This document shows, one piece after another, positions 35,160 through 44,706 of a stretch of 64,000 nt of DNA. The translations under genes and the position numbers were made by a program. Where the stretch lies: positions 682,001 through 746,000 of the forward strand of contig NZ_JAXIVS010000003.1 of NCBI RefSeq assembly GCF_034259325.1, in the 5' to 3' direction. How positions within the stretch are numbered: the first letter of the stretch is position 1; each line of letters opens with the position of its first letter. This stretch comes from Hyalangium ruber. GTDB taxonomy: Bacteria > Myxococcota > Myxococcia > Myxococcales > Myxococcaceae. The notes under the pieces are model-generated. The model was not told the DNA's origin. It worked only from the letters and a program-made list of their open reading frames with translations, and did no database searches.

Positions 35160-38100
35160 TCAGAACGCGAGCGGCAGCGAGAAGGCCGTGCCGTTGGACG
35201 TGCCCGTGCGGTAGCTCGTCGGCGCGCCGATGATCAACGTCGGCGGGCCTCCCTGGCCACCCGGTGAGAGCGACAGGTCCTGCCCGAAGTTGGACCGCTC
35301 CGTCGTGTCGCCGGTGATCAACATCCACGGAGTCATCCGGCCCTTCACCTGCGGCCCACCCGCGTAGATGAACACCGCGCCGCCTCCGTCCGACGCCTCC
35401 GAGGCGCCCGGCGCGCTCACCACCAGATCCGGCACGCCGTCGCCCGTCAGGTCCCGGCCACCCTCCAGCGCCCGGCCGAAGTTCACCGCACGCGTCCGGT
35501 GTACCAGCGTCTCCGGGGTCACCCCATCTCCCAGCGCGCCCACTAGCGCCTCGCCCGAAGCGGGCCGCCGCGCCACCAGCTTCGACGTCTCGAAGAGCAG
35601 CACCGCCGGCTGCGTCACCCCGTCGAACGGCACGCTCGTCGCGCTGATGGCGATCCGGTCCTTGCCATCCTTCAGGAAGTTGCCCAGCCGCACCGTCGCC
35701 ACGCCCATGCCCAGGTTGTTGCCACCCACCTCGGCGTCCGCCGCCAGCCGCACCCACGAGGCCGTCGTCCGCCCACCGCAGCGCCCCCCCGCCGGTTCGT
35801 AGCCGAAGAGGATGATGATGCCCGAGCGCCCCGTCTCCGTGTAGCGCCAGGACACCTCGTCGCAGCCATCCCCGTTCAGGTCGCCCAGCGCCGTCGGCGC
35901 CGACGTCTGCCGCGTCGTGGACCCATCCGTGAAGTACAGCGGGTCACACCCCATCGTCAGCTTCGCCAGCGACGCGTCATCCGGCGCACGCCCGGGGAAC
36001 ACCTCGAAGCCGTTGTTGCGCAGCGCTCCGATGTCCTCCCTGCCATCCCCGTTGAAGTCGAAGCCGCCCACCACCCCGCGGCCAATCTGGCTGCGCCGGC
36101 AGCGCGCGTCCGTGTCCGGCGTACACCCCGCGATCACCAGCGGCGCCCACAGCCGGTAGGCATCCTTGAAGGAGCCGTCCGCCTGCCCCAGCGACACCAT
36201 CAGTCCGCCCACGTTCGGGCCCGCCGAAGTCCCCGTGGTGGTGATGCACCCCGTCTTCTGCGCGGCGTACAGCGCCAGCTCGGCGGTCTGCCCCGAGCTC
36301 GGCAGGCTGAAGGAGTTCGCACCCACCACCAGGTCCGTGCGCCCATCCCCGTTGAAGTCGGTGAACGTCACGTCCGTGCCCACGCTGCGCCCACGCGCCA
36401 GCGGCGCCGTGCTCGCCCCCTCCGCCACCATCGTCGCCGCCGAGTTCTGCGTCGCGTTGTACACCCAGGCACGCCCCGCGGTGGTGTCCGCGCCGTCCGC
36501 GTTCGGTCCCGGCCCCGCGTAGCCCGGCGAGCCCACCAGCGCCACCGTCTGCCCGCCCGCGAGCGCCGCCGCTGCCACCACCTCGCCGAAGCGCTCCACC
36601 GCCGGGCGCGCCGGCACCGGAGCCACCGTCCGGCTCCACTCCGCCAGCGACGTGCCTCCGCGCAGGAAGGTCTCCACCCGTCCGGTGAAGGCCCCCGCGT
36701 CCGACGACGCGCGTCCGGAGAAGGCCACCAGCGCCGCTCCCGCCGGCCCCGTCCACGTCGTCATACCCACGCCCAACACGTCCGAGCGGGTTTGCCCGTG
36801 AATCACTCCCAGCGACTTGTTGATGACGCTGCCCGCGGCGAGCGTCGCCAGCGGATACGCCAGCACCCGGCCCGACAGCCGCAGCGTGGTGTTGTTGGGT
36901 CCCGGCGCGGCGGCGTTCGGTGCTCCCAGCACCAGCTCGCCACCCGGCTGCCCGTCCACGTCCATCACCGTGAAGCTCCGGCCCGCGAAGATGCTGCCGG
37001 CCTCGCCGTAGATGCGCGCGTAGGCCGCCTCCCGCAGCACCTGCACCGGCGTGTTCGACGGCTCTCCCGAGGGCTGATGGGCGCTCAGGTCGAAGATCAG
37101 CACACCGCCCGAATCCGGTCCGGACTGCACGCCCCCGCTGGTGCTCAGGTTCGGCGAGTCCGCCCGGTCCGCCACCGCCATCAGCAGCGGAGGCCGGGTG
37201 CCATCGGCCGGGGCCACGCCCAGGCGCCAGGTGCCCTCGTTGCTGTCCGCCGTGTTGCCCGGCACCACGTACACGTCCGGCGTGGCCCGGAAGCGCAGCC
37301 CGTCCGCGCGCCCGAAGAACACCGACACCGCCTGGAGCGCCACCGCCTGCGTGGTGCCGTCCGCCAGGTGGCGCGACACCTTGCTCAGCGCCGCCAGGTC
37401 CACGCGCCCGTCCGCGTTGAAGTCCGCCATCACCACCGCCCGGCCCAGGTCCGTGCTGCTGCGCGCCATGGGGTTGCCCGTGCGCGACAGGTCCGCGCCT
37501 CCCAGGCGAATGGCCGGCAGGTCCGGCACCGGCTGGCCCGGCGTGAGGGTGAAGATGTCCACCGTGCCGCGCCGGCTGATCGACGAGGTGGGCGCCAGGT
37601 CTCCCGCCGGCGCGCTGACGATGAGGTCCAGGTCCCCATCCCCGTCCGCGTCCGCCATGGCCAGACCCGTGCTGAAGGCACCGCCCCGGGCGAGGCTCGT
37701 CAGCGCCGGCCGCATCAGCTCCGGCCCGTTGGAGCCCCAGCGGTAGAGGTACACCGCGCCCGAGTCCGCGCCGGTGATGTCCGCGCCCGGCGAGCTCACC
37801 GCCAGCTCCGCCCGCCCGTCCTTGTCCAGGTCTCCCGCCGCGAGGTTGTCGCCGAAGGCCGCCGTGTCCGTCTGCCCGGTCAGCACCCACGTCGGCTGCT
37901 GGGGCAGCCCCGAGGGTCCGCCCTTGTAGATGAACACCGCGCCGCCCAGCGGCCGGTTGAGATCACTCTCGCGCTGGCCCACCGCCACGTCCTGTATCCC
38001 ATCCCCATCGAAGTCCGCGGTGATCAGGTGGGCCACGTCCGTGAGGCGGCCGCGGGGCTGCATGGTGCGCGTCAGGTCATCCAGCACGCGCACGGAGACG

Positions 38101-38891
38101 CGCGCCTTGTCCCCCGTGAAGGGGTCCGCCGCCTCCAGCACCATCACGCCCCGCGCCCCTGGCTCGAGGGTGACGCGAGCGCCCTCCAGCGAGCCCGGGC
38201 CGGTCACCTTCGTCCACGTCACCCGATTGCTCCCGCCCATGGTGCCCAGCGTCGTCGAGGAGCCCGAGGGCAGCGCCAGCACCTGCGGATCGCCCCGCAG
38301 CCGCGCGCTCGGCGTCACCTCGTACTCGAGACGGGCCACGTCGCCCGACTGCGTGTCGCGCACCTGCACCACGTCCAGGCCCGACGTCGCGCCCGCCGTG
38401 TACACGCCCGCGGGGGACAGCGTGCCGCCCGAGAGGTTCTCCACCAGGGTGTACTCGGCGTTGCCCAGGAGCCCCGCGGTGGCCACCTGGAAGGAGGTCC
38501 CCGGGCGCACCATGGCGCGGGAGGGCGCCACGTCGAAGGCGGACAGCACCTGCACCGTGGCCTGCGCGGAGCCCGTACACTGCACGTCCTCCACCACCAG
38601 CGTGTCCGAGGACGGGGTGTGGCCCGCGATGAAGCGGTCCCCGCGCATCTCGCCCGAGGAGCCTCCCGCCTCGGCACGGAAGCGGTAGTGGCCGCTGCCG
38701 CCCGAGGCGGTGAGCGCCACCACGCCGGAGACCCGCAGCCGCGTGGGCTCGGCCTTGAGCGCCAGCGGCGCCAGCCCGTCACACGCATCCACCACTGGCG
38801 GCTCTGGAGGGGGGCCCTCCGGCTCTTCACCCCCACAAGCCAGGGTCAGGAACGCGAACAGGGAGGCCGAGCGAGCGAGCAGTCGAGACAT
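35160..38891 (-). CDS. giant FG-GAP/integrin-alpha-like repeat lipoprotein
   Basis: 1243 residues. MSRLLARSASLFAFLTLACG is a lipoprotein signal (lipobox LACG). The first ~280 residues hold Ig-like sheet domains (GSGHYRF, SPAGVYTAG). The rest is FG-GAP/VCBS repeats with calcium-type loops such as DFDGDGIQD, DLDKDGRAE, DADGDGDLD, DFNADGRVD and DLNGDGCDE, forming at least one beta-propeller. Such lipoproteins are surface-exposed adhesion or scaffold proteins. It is last in a five-gene minus-strand operon (27-base gap to the heme lipoprotein) and may be the cell-surface component of that system. Confidence 0.85.
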   Translation of the reverse strand: MSRLLARSASLFAFLTLACGGEEPEGPPPEPPVVDACDGLAPLALKAEPTRLRVSGVVALTASGGSGHYRFRAEAGGSSGEMRGDRFIAGHTPSSDTLVVEDVQCTGSAQATVQVLSAFDVAPSRAMVRPGTSFQVATAGLLGNAEYTLVENLSGGTLSPAGVYTAGATSGLDVVQVRDTQSGDVARLEYEVTPSARLRGDPQVLALPSGSSTTLGTMGGSNRVTWTKVTGPGSLEGARVTLEPGARGVMVLEAADPFTGDKARVSVRVLDDLTRTMQPRGRLTDVAHLITADFDGDGIQDVAVGQRESDLNRPLGGAVFIYKGGPSGLPQQPTWVLTGQTDTAAFGDNLAAGDLDKDGRAELAVSSPGADITGADSGAVYLYRWGSNGPELMRPALTSLARGGAFSTGLAMADADGDGDLDLIVSAPAGDLAPTSSISRRGTVDIFTLTPGQPVPDLPAIRLGGADLSRTGNPMARSSTDLGRAVVMADFNADGRVDLAALSKVSRHLADGTTQAVALQAVSVFFGRADGLRFRATPDVYVVPGNTADSNEGTWRLGVAPADGTRPPLLMAVADRADSPNLSTSGGVQSGPDSGGVLIFDLSAHQPSGEPSNTPVQVLREAAYARIYGEAGSIFAGRSFTVMDVDGQPGGELVLGAPNAAAPGPNNTTLRLSGRVLAYPLATLAAGSVINKSLGVIHGQTRSDVLGVGMTTWTGPAGAALVAFSGRASSDAGAFTGRVETFLRGGTSLAEWSRTVAPVPARPAVERFGEVVAAAALAGGQTVALVGSPGYAGPGPNADGADTTAGRAWVYNATQNSAATMVAEGASTAPLARGRSVGTDVTFTDFNGDGRTDLVVGANSFSLPSSGQTAELALYAAQKTGCITTTGTSAGPNVGGLMVSLGQADGSFKDAYRLWAPLVIAGCTPDTDARCRRSQIGRGVVGGFDFNGDGREDIGALRNNGFEVFPGRAPDDASLAKLTMGCDPLYFTDGSTTRQTSAPTALGDLNGDGCDEVSWRYTETGRSGIIILFGYEPAGGRCGGRTTASWVRLAADAEVGGNNLGMGVATVRLGNFLKDGKDRIAISATSVPFDGVTQPAVLLFETSKLVARRPASGEALVGALGDGVTPETLVHRTRAVNFGRALEGGRDLTGDGVPDLVVSAPGASEASDGGGAVFIYAGGPQVKGRMTPWMLITGDTTERSNFGQDLSLSPGGQGGPPTLIIGAPTSYRTGTSNGTAFSLPLAF

Positions 38892-38918
38892 GGAAGTGAG
38901 ACTCCGAGGCTTCTCTAT

Positions 38919-40427
38919 TTACGGCTTGGCGCCAGAAGCAGCCCAGCGCTGGATCAGGGTGATGAGCTGCTGGTCCAGAGGACCGTCCGCGGGCATGCGC
39001 TGATCACGCACCGCCGCGGTGATGAGTTCCGCGTTCTCCTTCCACAGCTCATAGGTGGAGAGCTGGCGCCCCGGGCCGGAGATGTGGCACTTGGCGCAGC
39101 GCGCCTCGTGGATGGGGCGGATGTCCTTGTCCCAGCCGAGCACCACCGGGCCCACCGGCTGGAAGTCGAAGTACACCAGGCGCTTGGACTCGGAGCCATC
39201 CAGGAAGCGCGCCACCAGCTCGAGCACGTTCTTGCCCGGCTCCAGCGCGGCGAAGGAGTAGGGCTTGAGCTCCCCGTCCTTCTCCAGGCCGCCCAGGCTG
39301 TAGCCCGGCGCCTCCGCGACCACCTCCGCCCCGCCGATGCGGAACAGCAGCGTGGGCGTCTGCCCGGCCGGCGGCACCGCGCGCACCAGCAGGCTGTCCT
39401 CCACCACCCGCATGCCCTGGTGCAGTCCCAGCACGCGCGGCACGGGCGCGCGGCTGAGCACCACCGTCTCCGCGCCCAGCTGCACCCAGGCGCTGCCGCT
39501 CTCGTCCGCCGCCACGAAGCGGAACTCGCGCGTCTCCACGCCCGTGGCCAGGCCCCAGGAGTCCGCGTCCGCGTCATACAGCAACAGCTGATCGCTGGAC
39601 TTCACCCAGAGGAAGCGCCCGGCGCTCAGCAGCTGCACCGGCCGCTGGGCGAACTCCACCCGCCGCCACTTCCCGTCCTTGTGCCGCAGCAGCCGCTCCG
39701 AGGTGAGCACCCACAGCTCCGCCGTCGCGTCCTTCGACGCCTCCAGCCCCGCCATGGACACCAGCGTCTCCCTCTCGTCCAGCCGCAGCTCCGCCGGGCG
39801 CACCTGGTAGACGCCCGCCGCCGTGGCCACCGCCACGTACGGCTTGCCGTCCTTCAGCAGCCACACGCCCGGGGCCCCGTCCTCGGCCGGCGCCGCGGCC
39901 AGCACGGTGATGCCCTCCAGCGCCGCGCCATCCACCTTGAGCGCCGAGAGCTTGCCCTCATGGAGCCGGTAGAGCCCCGAGGTGTGCGCCAGCCACACCG
40001 CGCCATCGGCCGCCTGCGCCGTGGCCACCAGCCCCGGCCCCAGCGCGTCCCGCCACGGCGGGGCGATCAGCCAGCCCGCGTCCGCCAGGAAGAGACCCGT
40101 CTCGGTCTCCACCAGCGCGGTGCGAGGCCCCAGCCGGAACGCCGCGCGCGCCTTGCCCGGCGCCACCGCGTTGCCCGGGTGGCCCTCCAGCGGCGCGCGC
40201 GAGCCGTCTAGCCGCAGCCGGACCGGCGCTCCCGCCACGGAGACGAAGATGCCTCCGCCCGTCTGGTCGGCGAAGCCCGAACCCGAAGCAAGCGCCTCCT
40301 GCGAGCGCACCTGCGAGGCCTGGAAGGCCGTGGGCTGGGGCCGCTCCAACGGCAGGGTGGAGGAGCCCGAGGAGTCACCGCACGCGGCGGTGACGAGGAG
40401 GAGAAGGACGGGGGCGACAACCTTCAC
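38919..40427 (-). CDS. lipoprotein with propeller-like region and C-terminal c-heme domain
   Basis: About 502 residues. The chosen start is a GTG at 40425-40427 (KVVAPVLLLLVTAAC, lipobox TAAC), because it begins directly at the lipoprotein signal and has GGAGAGGG seven bases upstream. An ATG at 40469 would add MKKTNPLSPWERDG, which is a translated REP-like hairpin rather than a plausible signal. The middle ~360 residues are beta-rich with WLAHTSGLY, WLLKDGKPY and VLTSERLL repeats, propeller-like. The C-terminal ~75 residues hold CAKCH, a c-type heme site, in the typical IRPIHEARCAKCH context. It is fourth in the exported operon. Confidence 0.8.
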   Translation of the reverse strand: MKVVAPVLLLLVTAACGDSSGSSTLPLERPQPTAFQASQVRSQEALASGSGFADQTGGGIFVSVAGAPVRLRLDGSRAPLEGHPGNAVAPGKARAAFRLGPRTALVETETGLFLADAGWLIAPPWRDALGPGLVATAQAADGAVWLAHTSGLYRLHEGKLSALKVDGAALEGITVLAAAPAEDGAPGVWLLKDGKPYVAVATAAGVYQVRPAELRLDERETLVSMAGLEASKDATAELWVLTSERLLRHKDGKWRRVEFAQRPVQLLSAGRFLWVKSSDQLLLYDADADSWGLATGVETREFRFVAADESGSAWVQLGAETVVLSRAPVPRVLGLHQGMRVVEDSLLVRAVPPAGQTPTLLFRIGGAEVVAEAPGYSLGGLEKDGELKPYSFAALEPGKNVLELVARFLDGSESKRLVYFDFQPVGPVVLGWDKDIRPIHEARCAKCHISGPGRQLSTYELWKENAELITAAVRDQRMPADGPLDQQLITLIQRWAASGAKP

Positions 40428-40432
40428 CCCGT

Positions 40433-40453
40433 CCCTCTCCCAGGGGGAGAGGG
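40433..40453. repeat. REP-like inverted repeat overlapping a translation start
   Basis: CCCTCTCCC (40433-40441) pairs perfectly with GGGAGAGGG (40445-40453) with a three-base loop. Read on the minus strand, its GGAGAGGG arm sits where the ribosome site of the heme lipoprotein belongs. The peptide it encodes in one frame (PLSPWER) is the familiar translation of dispersed REP-like elements. A related hairpin is at 31803-31839. Confidence 0.65.
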
Positions 40454-40489
40454 GGTTTGTCTTCTTCATCCGCTTGGCTTTGCTTCGGT

Positions 40490-41884
40490 TCAGGCCAGGA
40501 TCGGCCGCAGCGGCTCGACGCGCGTGATGCTGTAGTCCAGGTTGGCCGAGGCCAGCACCGTGGCGATGACGTGCTCGGGCAGGATGTTCTCGCCCGTCGC
40601 CGTCGCCGCACCGTTGCGCAGGTCGAAGAGACCTGGCCCCATGCCGATGTCACCGCTCGCGCCGAACACGTAGTTGTGCTTCACGCCCGCGCCCATGAGC
40701 AGGCAGCTGTTGCACAGGTGGTGGTCTCGGCCGCCCGAGCCGTTGATGAGCGGGGTACGCGAGAACTCGGAGAACACCATGATGGTGGTGTGGTCCATGA
40801 AGTTGCCACCCGACGGGTGCGACGTGGCGCGCAGGTCGTCCACCAGCGTGGCCAGCGCGTCGAAACCGCGGCGCTGGTTGTTGGCGTGGTTGAGCTGGGT
40901 GCCGAAGTGCGTGTCCAGGCCGCCCGTGAGGTTGATGGAGACGCACTGGCTGATGCCCTGCTTGAGCGCGGTGGCCACCAGCGCCGCGCGGCCCGCCTCG
41001 GTGCTGTCGTAGCCGCCCGCGGGAGGGGTGGCCGCCAGCCCGTACTTCTGGCGCAGCTCCGCGTGCTCCGGCCGCTCGAAGCGGAAGGAGTTGTCCAGCC
41101 GGCCCGAGAGCACCGCCTGCATCTGGTCCCGGCTGTTCTCGTACGTCTCGCCCACGCCGCGCGCGCCGTAGGCCGCCGCCTCGCAGGAGATGGGCTGGCC
41201 CCGGAAGTCGATGAGCTGCTGCTCGATTTCACTGTCCAGCGTGCGCGTGCTGGGCGACAGCGTCAGCAGCAGGTCGTTGGAGCGGCTGACCCGCAGCGCG
41301 TTGGCGTGGCCGGGGTAGCGGTCGTTGTACGTCTCGATGTTGTAGGCGATCGACGGAATCGGCACACGCGGGGCGAGCTGGCCGACGATCTCCGTGGCGG
41401 TGGTCGAGCCACGCGCCGCGCTGCCGATGGGGCGCTTGCCGGTCAGGAAGTAGCGGAAGCCCACCTCGTGGCCCAGCGTCGTCATGTTGATGCCGCGCAC
41501 CACCGTCATCAGGTCGAAGTGGTTGGACAGCCGCCCCACCGCGGGCCCGAAGGTGATGTTCGAGAGCACCCCGTCCTTCTCGGGTACCAGCGGCATGCCC
41601 GAGAAGCGCGAGTCATTGATGAGGTTGTAGCCCGGCAGGATGCGCGTCTCGGAGATGCGCTCGGCGGTGAAGACCGTCGGGTCTCGCGGGTCGAACGCCA
41701 GCAGCTGGTCCCAGCCGCCGGAGAAGTACGCGAAGACGAAGCAGCGGTCTGGCGGGGCCAGGTTCGCCGCCTGGGCGAAGGCCCGGAAGGGCACGCCTCC
41801 GAAGAGGGTGGCGCCCATGAAGCCGGCGGCCGCCTTGAGGAAGGTGCGGCGCTCGGGGTTCGGAGAGTTCGGGTTCTTCTTCAT
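40490..41884 (-). CDS. DUF1501 family Tat-exported protein
   Basis: 464 residues with a twin-arginine signal (RRTFLKAAAGFMGATLFGG) ending near FAQA. DUF1501 proteins belong to the alkaline-phosphatase/sulfatase-like clan; here FAYFSGGWDQLLAFDPRDP, GHEVGFRYFLTG, TGGLDTHFG, MVFSEFSRTP and GRDHHLCNSCLLMGAG match the family's conserved blocks, including the FSEFxRTP and DHH motifs. Activity is unknown; the clan suggests a metal-dependent hydrolase in the periplasm. It is third in the operon, 16 bases after the upstream gene and 20 before the heme lipoprotein start at the upper ATG. Confidence 0.9.
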   Translation of the reverse strand: MKKNPNSPNPERRTFLKAAAGFMGATLFGGVPFRAFAQAANLAPPDRCFVFAYFSGGWDQLLAFDPRDPTVFTAERISETRILPGYNLINDSRFSGMPLVPEKDGVLSNITFGPAVGRLSNHFDLMTVVRGINMTTLGHEVGFRYFLTGKRPIGSAARGSTTATEIVGQLAPRVPIPSIAYNIETYNDRYPGHANALRVSRSNDLLLTLSPSTRTLDSEIEQQLIDFRGQPISCEAAAYGARGVGETYENSRDQMQAVLSGRLDNSFRFERPEHAELRQKYGLAATPPAGGYDSTEAGRAALVATALKQGISQCVSINLTGGLDTHFGTQLNHANNQRRGFDALATLVDDLRATSHPSGGNFMDHTTIMVFSEFSRTPLINGSGGRDHHLCNSCLLMGAGVKHNYVFGASGDIGMGPGLFDLRNGAATATGENILPEHVIATVLASANLDYSITRVEPLRPILA

Positions 41885-41900
41885 GGCAGGGGTCCCCGAG

Positions 41901-42566
41901 TCAGTAGGTGAGGAAGCGCGAGTCCGTCATCATCGCGATGCACACGGCCGCGAAGGCGTGGTCTCGCTTGCGGATGGTCTCGGAACGGGCGGCGGCCTGG
42001 GTGAAGAAGGCCTGCCACTTCGTGAGCTCGTCGCCATGCAGCGGCGCGCCCCAGAAGCGGGTGGACAGGTAGACGAGCAGCTCGCTCTTCTGCGCGTCCG
42101 TCAGCTGGGTGAGGTTACCCGCCGTGCCGCTCACGACGGGCAGCGTCCGGCTGAGCACCCGGGCGTTGGGGTCGGCCACCGACATCTCGGCGGCCGCCTG
42201 CGCCAGGCACACCTCACGGGCCCCGTCCTCGAGGAACTTGGCGAACACCAGGTTGGGCTCGGTGTTCTCGGTGACGATGTTGGCGTAGTCGGCCCGGCCC
42301 AGCGAGGCAGCCAGGTTGTCGAGCTGCGTCCACGGGCGGCCCACCGTCTTCTCGATGCTCGTCTTGAGCTGAGCCACGGTGATGCGGCGAGGGGCACGGC
42401 CGACCGACCCCTCCTGCACCTCGGGGTCCGGCAGCGGGGTGACGCTGCCGTGGGGGTTGGGGATGGGCTCGAGCTGCCCGTCCATGGGCGGAGGCAGAGG
42501 CGTCTCCTCCGACTTGGAACAGGCGGGCGCGAGCGCGAGCAACGCGAGGGCGACGAGGCGGCGCAT
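41901..42566 (-). CDS. lipoprotein of the DUF1501 operon
   Basis: 221 residues. MRRLVALALLALAPAC gives a lipoprotein signal (lipobox APAC), followed by a Pro-rich linker and a helical domain containing a single internal Cys-bearing helix, and ends with AFAAVCIAMMTDSRFLTY. That ending is like the C-terminal helix of planctomycete-type DUF1585/DUF1800-like proteins that pair with DUF1501. Its ATG overlaps the previous gene's stop by one base (TGATG), so the two are translationally coupled. Function unknown. Confidence 0.75.
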   Translation of the reverse strand: MRRLVALALLALAPACSKSEETPLPPPMDGQLEPIPNPHGSVTPLPDPEVQEGSVGRAPRRITVAQLKTSIEKTVGRPWTQLDNLAASLGRADYANIVTENTEPNLVFAKFLEDGAREVCLAQAAAEMSVADPNARVLSRTLPVVSGTAGNLTQLTDAQKSELLVYLSTRFWGAPLHGDELTKWQAFFTQAAARSETIRKRDHAFAAVCIAMMTDSRFLTY

Positions 42567-44548
42567 CAGTCGATCCTCCGGTAGGCGTCGGTCATCAGCA
42601 GCTTCTCGATGAGCGCCTTGAGGTTGTGATTGCTACGAGAGAACTCCTGCGAGAGCGGCGCCAGGTACAGGCGGCTCTCCTCCGTCGTCATCGGCCGGCC
42701 GAGGAACTCCGTCCAGATGCGGCGCACCGTGCAGCGCTCCAGGTCACCCGTCTGCAGCATGCGCTCCACCAGCAGCTTCGGGCCGGCCTCGATGTTCGCC
42801 TCCTCCTCGGCCGTGCGGTACAGGTACGTCTTGAGCATGCCCAGCGAGTTGGCGCCGTCGCCGTCGAAGGCCTGCATCACGTACTGGCCGCACTCGCCGC
42901 CGCAGTTGGTGTCACCCGCCAGGGCGCAGTCGCGGCACTTCGGATCGAAGCGCGGGAACTTCTCGGGCGTGAGGAACAGCGAGTTGCGCTCGTCGTAGCG
43001 GCCCCAGTGCGCGCCCGTGGGCTCGATGGTGGCGTGGCAGTAGTTGCAGCCGCAGCGCCGGGCCAGGTTGTTCTCCCGGTTGCAGTTGTCCTCGGGCGGA
43101 GGCAGCGGGTCCGAGGACGGGACGAACGTCTTGCAGAGGAAGGCCTCGTAGAAGTGGTTCACACGGGCGCGCTGCGTGGGGAAGCGGTAGAGGAACGAGG
43201 GCGTGGTGAGCACACCCGAGTGCGACGCGTCCCGCGTGTACTCCTCCCAGGTGTCCACCTGCAGGTAGGGGATGGCCGGCATCACGCTCAGGTCCGCGGG
43301 CGCGGTGATGGTGAAGATGCCGACGCCCTGCTGCTGCCGGTAGAACTCGGACATGGTGCCGTTCACGAAGGAGCGGCGCGTGGTGAGGATGTTGAAGTAG
43401 GGCTCCTCGCGCTCGATGACCGAGTTGGCGATCAGCTCCGGCTCCTCGTTGATGGCCGAGATGCGGGCGGTGTGCGTGGCGGCCACCTCGCAGCGGCGCA
43501 TGCCCGTGCCGCAGCCGCAGCTCCGGTCACGCGCGAAGCGCGTCGTCTCGCACGACTCCAGCGTCCACGGGTTGATGTCGCGCTCCTGCGCCTCGATGGC
43601 GCACACGGTCACCGGCGTGGGCTCGGTGGCGAAGAAGGGCGCGGGCTTCGTGACGTAGCCCTCGCGCTGGATGCAGCCGCGCACCGGGGTGTAGGCGCCC
43701 TTGACGCCGTTGCGCAGCGGCTGCTCCAGGGTGCAGCGATCCAGCCGGGTGAGGTTGGTGCCCGCGGGCGGGTTGGGGTGTACGAAGGCCACCACCTTGG
43801 TGCCCTCCAGCTCCTCCTGCGTCAGCACGTTGGTGGTGCTCTTGTTCGGATCCGGCAGGCACAGGTGCGGGTGGAGCCGACCGTCGCCCAGCCGCCGCAT
43901 GTCGCAGAAGTTCAGGTGCTTGGCCGGCACCAGCCCCTTGGTCACCGCCACGTCGCACGAGGTGACGGTGGTGTCGGTGCTGTCCAGGCGGGTACACGCG
44001 AAGAAGTTGGTGTCGTAGTCGTAGCTCACCGGCAGCGGGACGCCCTGGGCGTCACGGCATACCTTGGTGGCCGGCTCCGAGTGCGGGTCCTGCCGCGACG
44101 CGGTGGCGCCGCAGTTGTCCTGCTCGATGTAGGCGTCACACGACTGGTTGTTCACGCCGCGCAGCGAGGTGCTGGTATTGCCCCGCAGGCCGAGCGGGTT
44201 GTTCGCCCCGCCGGTGCCCACCAGGCGCGTGTCTCCGTTATCGAACACGCTGCCGGAGACGTTCGAGCGCAAGAGCGCGCGGTGGTAGCCGCGCATGCGC
44301 TCATAGAACTCATCCGAGCTCATCATTCCCCGGATGTCCTCCGGGGCGATGGAGCCCTTGGCCTGATAGGCCCGATACTCCTCGATGGTGGGGGGGCGAC
44401 CGAGCAGGTCGAGAGAGAGCTGTCGAAGATGACGCTCGAGGGGGACCTTCGTCACGGGAGCGCAGACCGCCTCTTGAGCCAGAGCGGGGGTTGCGATCAG
44501 CAGGGCGAAGGCCGCGAGAGCGGTGATACAGCGTCGCACGCGAGGCAC
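42566..44548 (-). CDS. secreted DUF1588/DUF1585-like protein with c-type heme-like motif
   Basis: 660 residues from a GTG at 44546-44548, chosen because GGAGG lies five bases upstream and the Sec signal (RRCITALAAFALLIATPALA) follows at once. The N-terminal part contains a PSD1/DUF1592-like helical segment (LRQLSLDLLGRPPTIEEYRA). The centre has TPSFLYRFPTQRARVNHFYE and CGCNYCHATIEPTGAHWGRYDE (DUF1588-like, with CNYCH as a possible heme site), and the end GRPMTTEESRLYLAPLSQEF is DUF1585-like. Many other Cys suggest disulfides. First gene of the exported five-gene operon; its promoter should lie in 44549-44706. Confidence 0.8.
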   Translation of the reverse strand: MPRVRRCITALAAFALLIATPALAQEAVCAPVTKVPLERHLRQLSLDLLGRPPTIEEYRAYQAKGSIAPEDIRGMMSSDEFYERMRGYHRALLRSNVSGSVFDNGDTRLVGTGGANNPLGLRGNTSTSLRGVNNQSCDAYIEQDNCGATASRQDPHSEPATKVCRDAQGVPLPVSYDYDTNFFACTRLDSTDTTVTSCDVAVTKGLVPAKHLNFCDMRRLGDGRLHPHLCLPDPNKSTTNVLTQEELEGTKVVAFVHPNPPAGTNLTRLDRCTLEQPLRNGVKGAYTPVRGCIQREGYVTKPAPFFATEPTPVTVCAIEAQERDINPWTLESCETTRFARDRSCGCGTGMRRCEVAATHTARISAINEEPELIANSVIEREEPYFNILTTRRSFVNGTMSEFYRQQQGVGIFTITAPADLSVMPAIPYLQVDTWEEYTRDASHSGVLTTPSFLYRFPTQRARVNHFYEAFLCKTFVPSSDPLPPPEDNCNRENNLARRCGCNYCHATIEPTGAHWGRYDERNSLFLTPEKFPRFDPKCRDCALAGDTNCGGECGQYVMQAFDGDGANSLGMLKTYLYRTAEEEANIEAGPKLLVERMLQTGDLERCTVRRIWTEFLGRPMTTEESRLYLAPLSQEFSRSNHNLKALIEKLLMTDAYRRID

Positions 44549-44706
44549 TGGGACCTCCGAGGGGGGGTGCTGGATGACTCGCGGCGTGTTATGCCCGTAT
44601 TTCCGATCTTTAGCTAGTCCCCTTTCACACACAGTGTAGGTGTTCGCGAGACCCACACCACGCGGAGCAGTTGCAAGTGTGCGTGGTTCCAGACATTCAG
44701 GGGGGC
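44549..44706. promoter_or_regulatory. divergent promoter region of the exported operon and DUF420 gene
   Basis: This 158-base gap separates two divergent starts and is locally AT-rich around 44590-44640. It must contain promoters for both directions. No clear -35/-10 pair was found by eye. Confidence 0.4.

Follow-up and report, generated by a model that had tools for sequence, protein, structure and literature searches.

Does the palindrome that lies over the start of a lipoprotein gene of Hyalangium ruber provide this gene with a ribosome site and a GTG start codon, or is it an inserted sequence that is read through from an ATG further upstream? The gene is located on the minus strand (38919 to 40469) of the window, i.e. 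the whole stretch of 64,000 nucleotides that was analysed, and from the ATG at 40467-40469 it encodes a product of 516 amino acids that starts with MKKTNPLSPWERDGVKVVAPVLLLLVTAACGD. The protein has a lipobox recognised from the sequence (VTAAC) and one CAKCH heme-attachment-like motif, and a Pfam search with it gave no match. A signal peptide, MKKTNPLSPWERDGVKVVAPVLLLLVTAA, is predicted from the translation (40383 to 40469, minus strand). The upstream neighbour on the same strand is a DUF1501 gene (PF07394; 40490 to 41884), whose stop lies 20 nt before the lipoprotein ATG, a spacing that is compatible with translational coupling. Both genes are found within an operon-like arrangement on the minus strand (35160-44656) that consists, in order, of a PSCyt2-like gene (PF07583), a small lipoprotein-like ORF, the DUF1501 gene, the lipoprotein gene and a gene for an FG-GAP repeat protein.

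The perfect nine-base inverted repeat reported in a preliminary description of this DNA was confirmed at 40433-40453, where two 9-nt arms (40433-40441 and 40445-40453) are 100% complementary and separated by a 3-nt loop. Taken alone this repeat proves nothing, because paired arms of 9 bp around a 3-nt loop occur at chance level (one in the window; 30 first-order simulations gave 0.8 on average). The repeat gains its significance from the fact that it belongs to a 33-nt consensus, which is matched with one mismatch and whose reversed control was absent from 96 genomes, as well as from the presence of the motif at the same place in orthologs. This consensus is that of TMECO, earlier called PIT, the intrastrand-triplex motif of Holder et al. 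2015 (PMC4666352), and the published pattern CCCTCNCCC-N3-6-GGGNGAGGG-N3-GGGNGAGGG, with at most one stem mismatch, is followed by the 33-nt window copy (40421 to 40453, minus strand). This copy reads CCCTCTCCC-CCT-GGGAGAGGG-ACG-GGGTGAAGG, with stem 1 at 40445-40453, a loop at 40442-40444, stem 2 at 40433-40441, a second loop at 40430-40432, and stem 3, which carries the single mismatch, at 40421-40429. Judged by its letters, the window repeat is the known, published TMECO/PIT motif. A relaxed 21-nt pattern occurred once in the window, at the palindrome, and no Rfam model gave a match near its gathering score between 40000 and 41000. When the motif hairpin (rather than the triplex) was folded as DNA its energy was -9.4 kcal/mol; as RNA the hairpin reached -17.9 kcal/mol, with the G arm sequestered within it.

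The 33-nt pattern was then counted, allowing up to three mismatches and with the reversed consensus as a control, in 96 genomes of the same myxobacterial family. The pattern was matched in 25 of them and exceeded 100 copies (117-597) in 11, and the reversed control was found in none of the 96. The genome that carries the window (G000; 10.77 Mb in 43 contigs) contained only two copies, the second of which is located directly past the stop codon of a gene; hence, the dispersed PLSPWER family proposed in the preliminary description is real, with hundreds of copies in relatives, but the claim hardly extends to G000, which lacks the many copies that characterise TMECO/PIT. A looser pattern, CCCTCTCC-N2-12-GGAGAGGG, was found at 13 places in G000 versus two for its reversed control. 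In the 22 copies that could be aligned, which are those fitting a strict pattern among the fetched loci, the loops were variable and the stems constant, and the arrangement GGGAGAGGG-NN-GGGGTG was present in every one. Tandem copies, 65-81 nt apart and in the same orientation, were frequent in motif-rich genomes (L095, L097, L117, L160, and L162). Membership in the REP/RAYT class was considered and rejected: the bases at the tag position vary among the 22 copies (the window copy shows CGTC on the plus strand since its second loop starts with AC), and the occurrence of Y1 tyrosine transposases (PF01797) is not related to copy number, none being found in G000 or in seven of the 11 genomes that exceed 100 copies. 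The earlier designation of the element as REP-like therefore finds no support in its strict, RAYT-linked sense.

Matches to the lipoprotein were obtained in 81 of the 96 family genomes, 79 of them at an E value of 3.7e-79 or better, and the start region was compared in 77 of these 79 loci, the other two ending at contig edges. The DUF1501 stop was recognisable in 70 of the 77 loci, and the in-frame start could be traced in 45. In 44 of these 45 loci an in-frame ATG was found, its distance from the stop of DUF1501 ranging from -1 to +27 nt, whether the motif was present or absent; the remaining locus, L024, had no ATG at the expected place. The prediction that automated annotation adds 14 false residues to this protein was thus not borne out, as loci that carry the motif and loci that lack it both conserve the upstream ATG.

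An intact motif was present at the lipoprotein locus of six genomes (G000, G003, G007, G027, G061, and G063), in the same reading frame in all six, and when decayed copies were included the motif was detected at this locus in 13 genomes of four genera. In the window the motif contributes PLSPWERDGVK to the n-region of the predicted signal peptide, and the copy therefore lies in frame between the ATG and the lipobox rather than in the intergenic location reported, though not as a defining property, for E. coli K-12. Two genomes of the genus g8, G060 and G062, lacked the motif at the locus, yet they harbored 493 and 584 copies elsewhere. Compared with their sister G061 they showed a 39-nt in-frame gap, with CCCCT at either end of the missing stretch, and at these empty sites the ATG was kept and the GTG was absent. 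In g15, a decayed motif was detectable in frame in seven of seven loci (p 0.002-0.028 in a test on DNA with 500 shuffles for each locus); the ATG and the frame were maintained in all seven, and four (L035, L036, L038, and L039) had no GTG at the site. The same test gave no significant remnant in g12 (p 0.39-0.71 for L010, L059, and L061, and 0.67 for L012), and a remnant suspected there from the peptide PWRSWGWRW was consequently dropped. In g23, five loci (L042, L048, L049, L050, and L052) gave p<0.05 among 67 tested, which is about the level expected by chance with so many tests.

In a tree of the mature lipoprotein and DUF1501 (44 rows and 936 columns, quick method), G003 (g4) and the g8 carriers G007, G027, G061, and G063 fell in one clade, which also includes g12, and G000 fell in another, with g15 beside it. 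G060 and G062 were sisters (SH-aLRT 99), adjoined G061 (SH-aLRT 100) and were nested among the carriers, so that loss is the simplest reading of their empty sites. Among the five g4/g8 carriers, all four variable columns of the 33 were confined to the five loop columns (p 1.2e-4), while 12-30% of fourfold sites differed across the rest of the gene. These data indicate that the stems have been kept by a process acting on DNA or RNA rather than on the protein; candidates are gene conversion with the abundant copies elsewhere, structural selection, and separate insertions.

Copies elsewhere in g8 were also surveyed, 79 of them in 57 loci of three genomes, picked from listed places rather than at random, and they were mostly located outside genes. 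Two, however, were in frame and in reverse orientation within flexible stretches that follow signal peptides, one in a TonB-dependent-receptor-like gene (L172 in G061, about position 1960) and the other in a CapA-like lipoprotein gene (L154 in G060, about position 2029), both names being our reading of the sequences. At each of these places the motif peptide (PHPDPLPEGEG-like) was common to five of six g8 genomes, the sixth showing a doubtful trace. An automatic coding score found none of the 79 copies with a coding signal on both sides, and a looser survey of the same copies yielded 11 N-terminal and three C-terminal candidates, of which these two were examined by hand. Because both proved to be coding, the automatic score underestimates such copies, and we claim no rate; the motif has nonetheless entered tolerant N-terminal regions of exported proteins repeatedly. 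At a further place, L160 of G060 (about 1962-2000), the ATG of a long coding-like ORF follows within a few bases of the end of the motif, and this is a better place than the window gene to ask whether the motif can serve as a ribosome site.

Taken as a whole, the conserved ATG (44 of 45 loci), the empty sites of G060 and G062, the decayed g15 copies and the coding copies in g8 support the view, which we regard as highly probable, that the triplex motif of the window is an old in-frame insertion, which lies within the n-region of the signal peptide of this lipoprotein and is translated from the conserved ATG at 40469. A TMECO/PIT copy would have been inserted in frame just past the start codon, probably once, in a shared ancestor of several genera of myxobacteria. 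Translation would still begin at the ATG, probably coupled to the termination of DUF1501, and the motif would be read as PLSPWER(V/D)GV(R/K), so that the protein would be exported with a longer n-region, a segment that should tolerate extra residues. In motif-rich relatives the copy may have been either preserved intact or cleanly lost, and in copy-poor relatives it may have decayed as ordinary codons, presumably with no regulatory role for the copy itself. Against this reading we count the contrast in anti-SD pairing between the two starts and the quality of the peptide read from the GTG, both described below, a difference in the offset of the insert, the report that the motif is intergenic in K-12, and the lack of a significant remnant in g12.

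The competing proposal of the preliminary description was that the GGGAGAGGG arm of the motif is the ribosome site of the GTG at 40427 (40425 to 40427, minus strand, within stem 3), which would be the true start, with the upstream ATG unused. The arm does pair well with a generic anti-SD (-9.6 kcal/mol ahead of the GTG versus -1.4 ahead of the ATG), and the peptide read from the GTG, MKVVAPVLLLLVTAAC, would also be a good, clean lipoprotein signal. That part of the proposal holds, but the arm is sequestered in the RNA hairpin, the ATG is conserved in nearly all traced loci, and the GTG is missing both in the motif-free relatives G060 and G062, the comparison that the preliminary description had called for, and in more than half of the g15 loci. 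Since the arm and the GTG are a fixed part of every motif copy, their juxtaposition is no sign that the element was recruited into translation control, and we consider it very improbable that the GTG is the start of this gene. The better pairing at the GTG leaves room for its use as a minor second start beside the ATG, giving signal peptides of two lengths, and ribosomes arriving from the ATG would open the hairpin; as the GTG has been lost in several relatives, such dual initiation seems unlikely. The insert is located 10 codons downstream of the ATG in g4/g8 and five codons downstream of it in G000 and g15, a difference that could reflect either a single insertion followed by a 15-nt indel or two separate events. 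Independent arrivals at a common hot spot, in the g4/g8 lineage and in the g1/g15 lineage, would also agree with the loop variants of these copies, which match those of the dispersed pool, but the same gene, the same few codons and the same orientation and frame would have been hit in both lineages, and we hold two insertions as a tentative alternative that is less probable than not.

It could also be argued that what is conserved in G000 and g15 is not the motif but an RNA hairpin for early mRNA control. In G000 and its seven g15 relatives the G arm of the motif can pair over 13-14 bp with downstream signal-peptide codons; in the window, arm 1 (40427 to 40440, minus strand) overlaps motif stem 2 and part of stem 3 and is 93% complementary to arm 2 (40400 to 40413, minus strand), located in the h-region codons. 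In these eight sequences 91.1% of the cells of this helix were paired, versus 62-74% in slid versions of it and 79.4% for the hairpin of the motif itself; three pairs were changed on both sides, in a total of 10 cells, and the covariation score was reached by none of 500 shuffles. Codon pairs changed on both sides (GAC/GTC, GGC/GCC, GGT/ACC, and GAG/CTC), together with GGT/GCC and GGT/ATC, interchange with pairing kept and with different amino acids on both sides. Stems of at least 11 bp, G-U allowed, were found in all eight sequences versus 20 of 264 internal control windows. Nevertheless, the helix was chosen after seeing the folds of the same sequences, which represent one clade, and a purine-rich arm opposite Leu codons pairs easily. 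Folding energy was no better than that of synonymous shuffles (z -0.56 for G000 and a mean of +1.11 for the seven g15 sequences; mean z -0.24 in 132 internal control windows), which speaks against selection for overall structure, and stem length reached p<0.05 against such shuffles in three of eight sequences. In G000, a 58-nt piece favoured the alternative hairpin (-32.6 kcal/mol) and the 111-nt region favoured the motif hairpin. The evidence for the alternative hairpin is suggestive and the reasons for doubt have equal weight, so that its replacing the motif as the conserved feature appears rather doubtful.

Other palindromes were observed at the start of this gene. In g26 (L071-L083) the signal-peptide n-region contains the palindrome GCGCCACGGT-ACCGTGGCGC, with one copy per genome, which forms an 11-bp helix in which both sides have changed at two pairs (14 sequences). 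In part of g23 (L040, L041, L044, and L046) a different one, GCCCCCCGT-ACGGGGGGC, was found, with one mismatch in L044 and a 9-bp helix whose covariation was not above that of shuffles (11 sequences). A search for dispersal of either palindrome found none; both are specific to this locus and unrelated to the motif. A much more speculative idea, to which we attach little probability, is that this gene start is selected to hold an RNA hairpin of any sequence, for which the triplex motif would be a ready-made source; in G000 and its nearest relatives the G arm would have been rewired to signal-peptide codons, and two mutually exclusive hairpins with one arm in common could then serve as a switch, coupled to translation, between the DUF1501 gene and the lipoprotein.

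Although described from E. coli as lying between genes, this motif family also inserts in frame within genes, where additional residues are tolerated, such as in the n-region of signal peptides and in the linkers that follow them. The filled, decayed and empty orthologous sites provide a natural series for the arrival, decay and departure of repeats. They also advise caution in annotation, as a repeat that resembles a ribosome site is no reason for moving a start, and PLSPWER-like residues should not be called spurious.

The window copy resembles TMECO/PIT, as described by Holder et al., in its three-stem layout, stem sequences, loop sizes, the one mismatch allowed, and a very uneven copy number (PMC4666352). 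That report gives an uneven number of copies among relatives and an association with small deletions, and it places every E. coli K-12 copy between genes, unlike the window copy, which lies inside coding sequence in a genome that holds just two (PMC4666352). In the open-licence literature searched, we found no report of TMECO/PIT inside genes or from myxobacteria. The repeats CCCTCTCCCXX(X)GGGAGAGGG of Enterobacter sp. 638, with 100 copies, are described as lying mostly at the 3' ends of genes and were interpreted there as terminators (PMC2869309); they share the same palindrome, with a loop of 2-3 nt, but the window copy is at a 5' end and within the gene (PMC2869309). Like the GTAG/CGTC-tagged REPs, some of which are reported to be intragenic, the window element is a short palindrome inside a gene, but the 22 aligned copies have no constant GTAG or CGTC tag; the authors of that work warn that N-terminal cases may reflect misannotated starts (PMC3733652). 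The Rickettsia palindromic elements (RPE) are described as palindromes of about 150 bp that lie in frame in protein genes and are translated (PMC10969869). Although unrelated to them in size, the motif studied here resembles RPE in its mode of insertion, as a palindrome that is read through within the frame of a conserved protein-coding gene in six of six intact carriers and is missing from the empty sites of G060 and G062.
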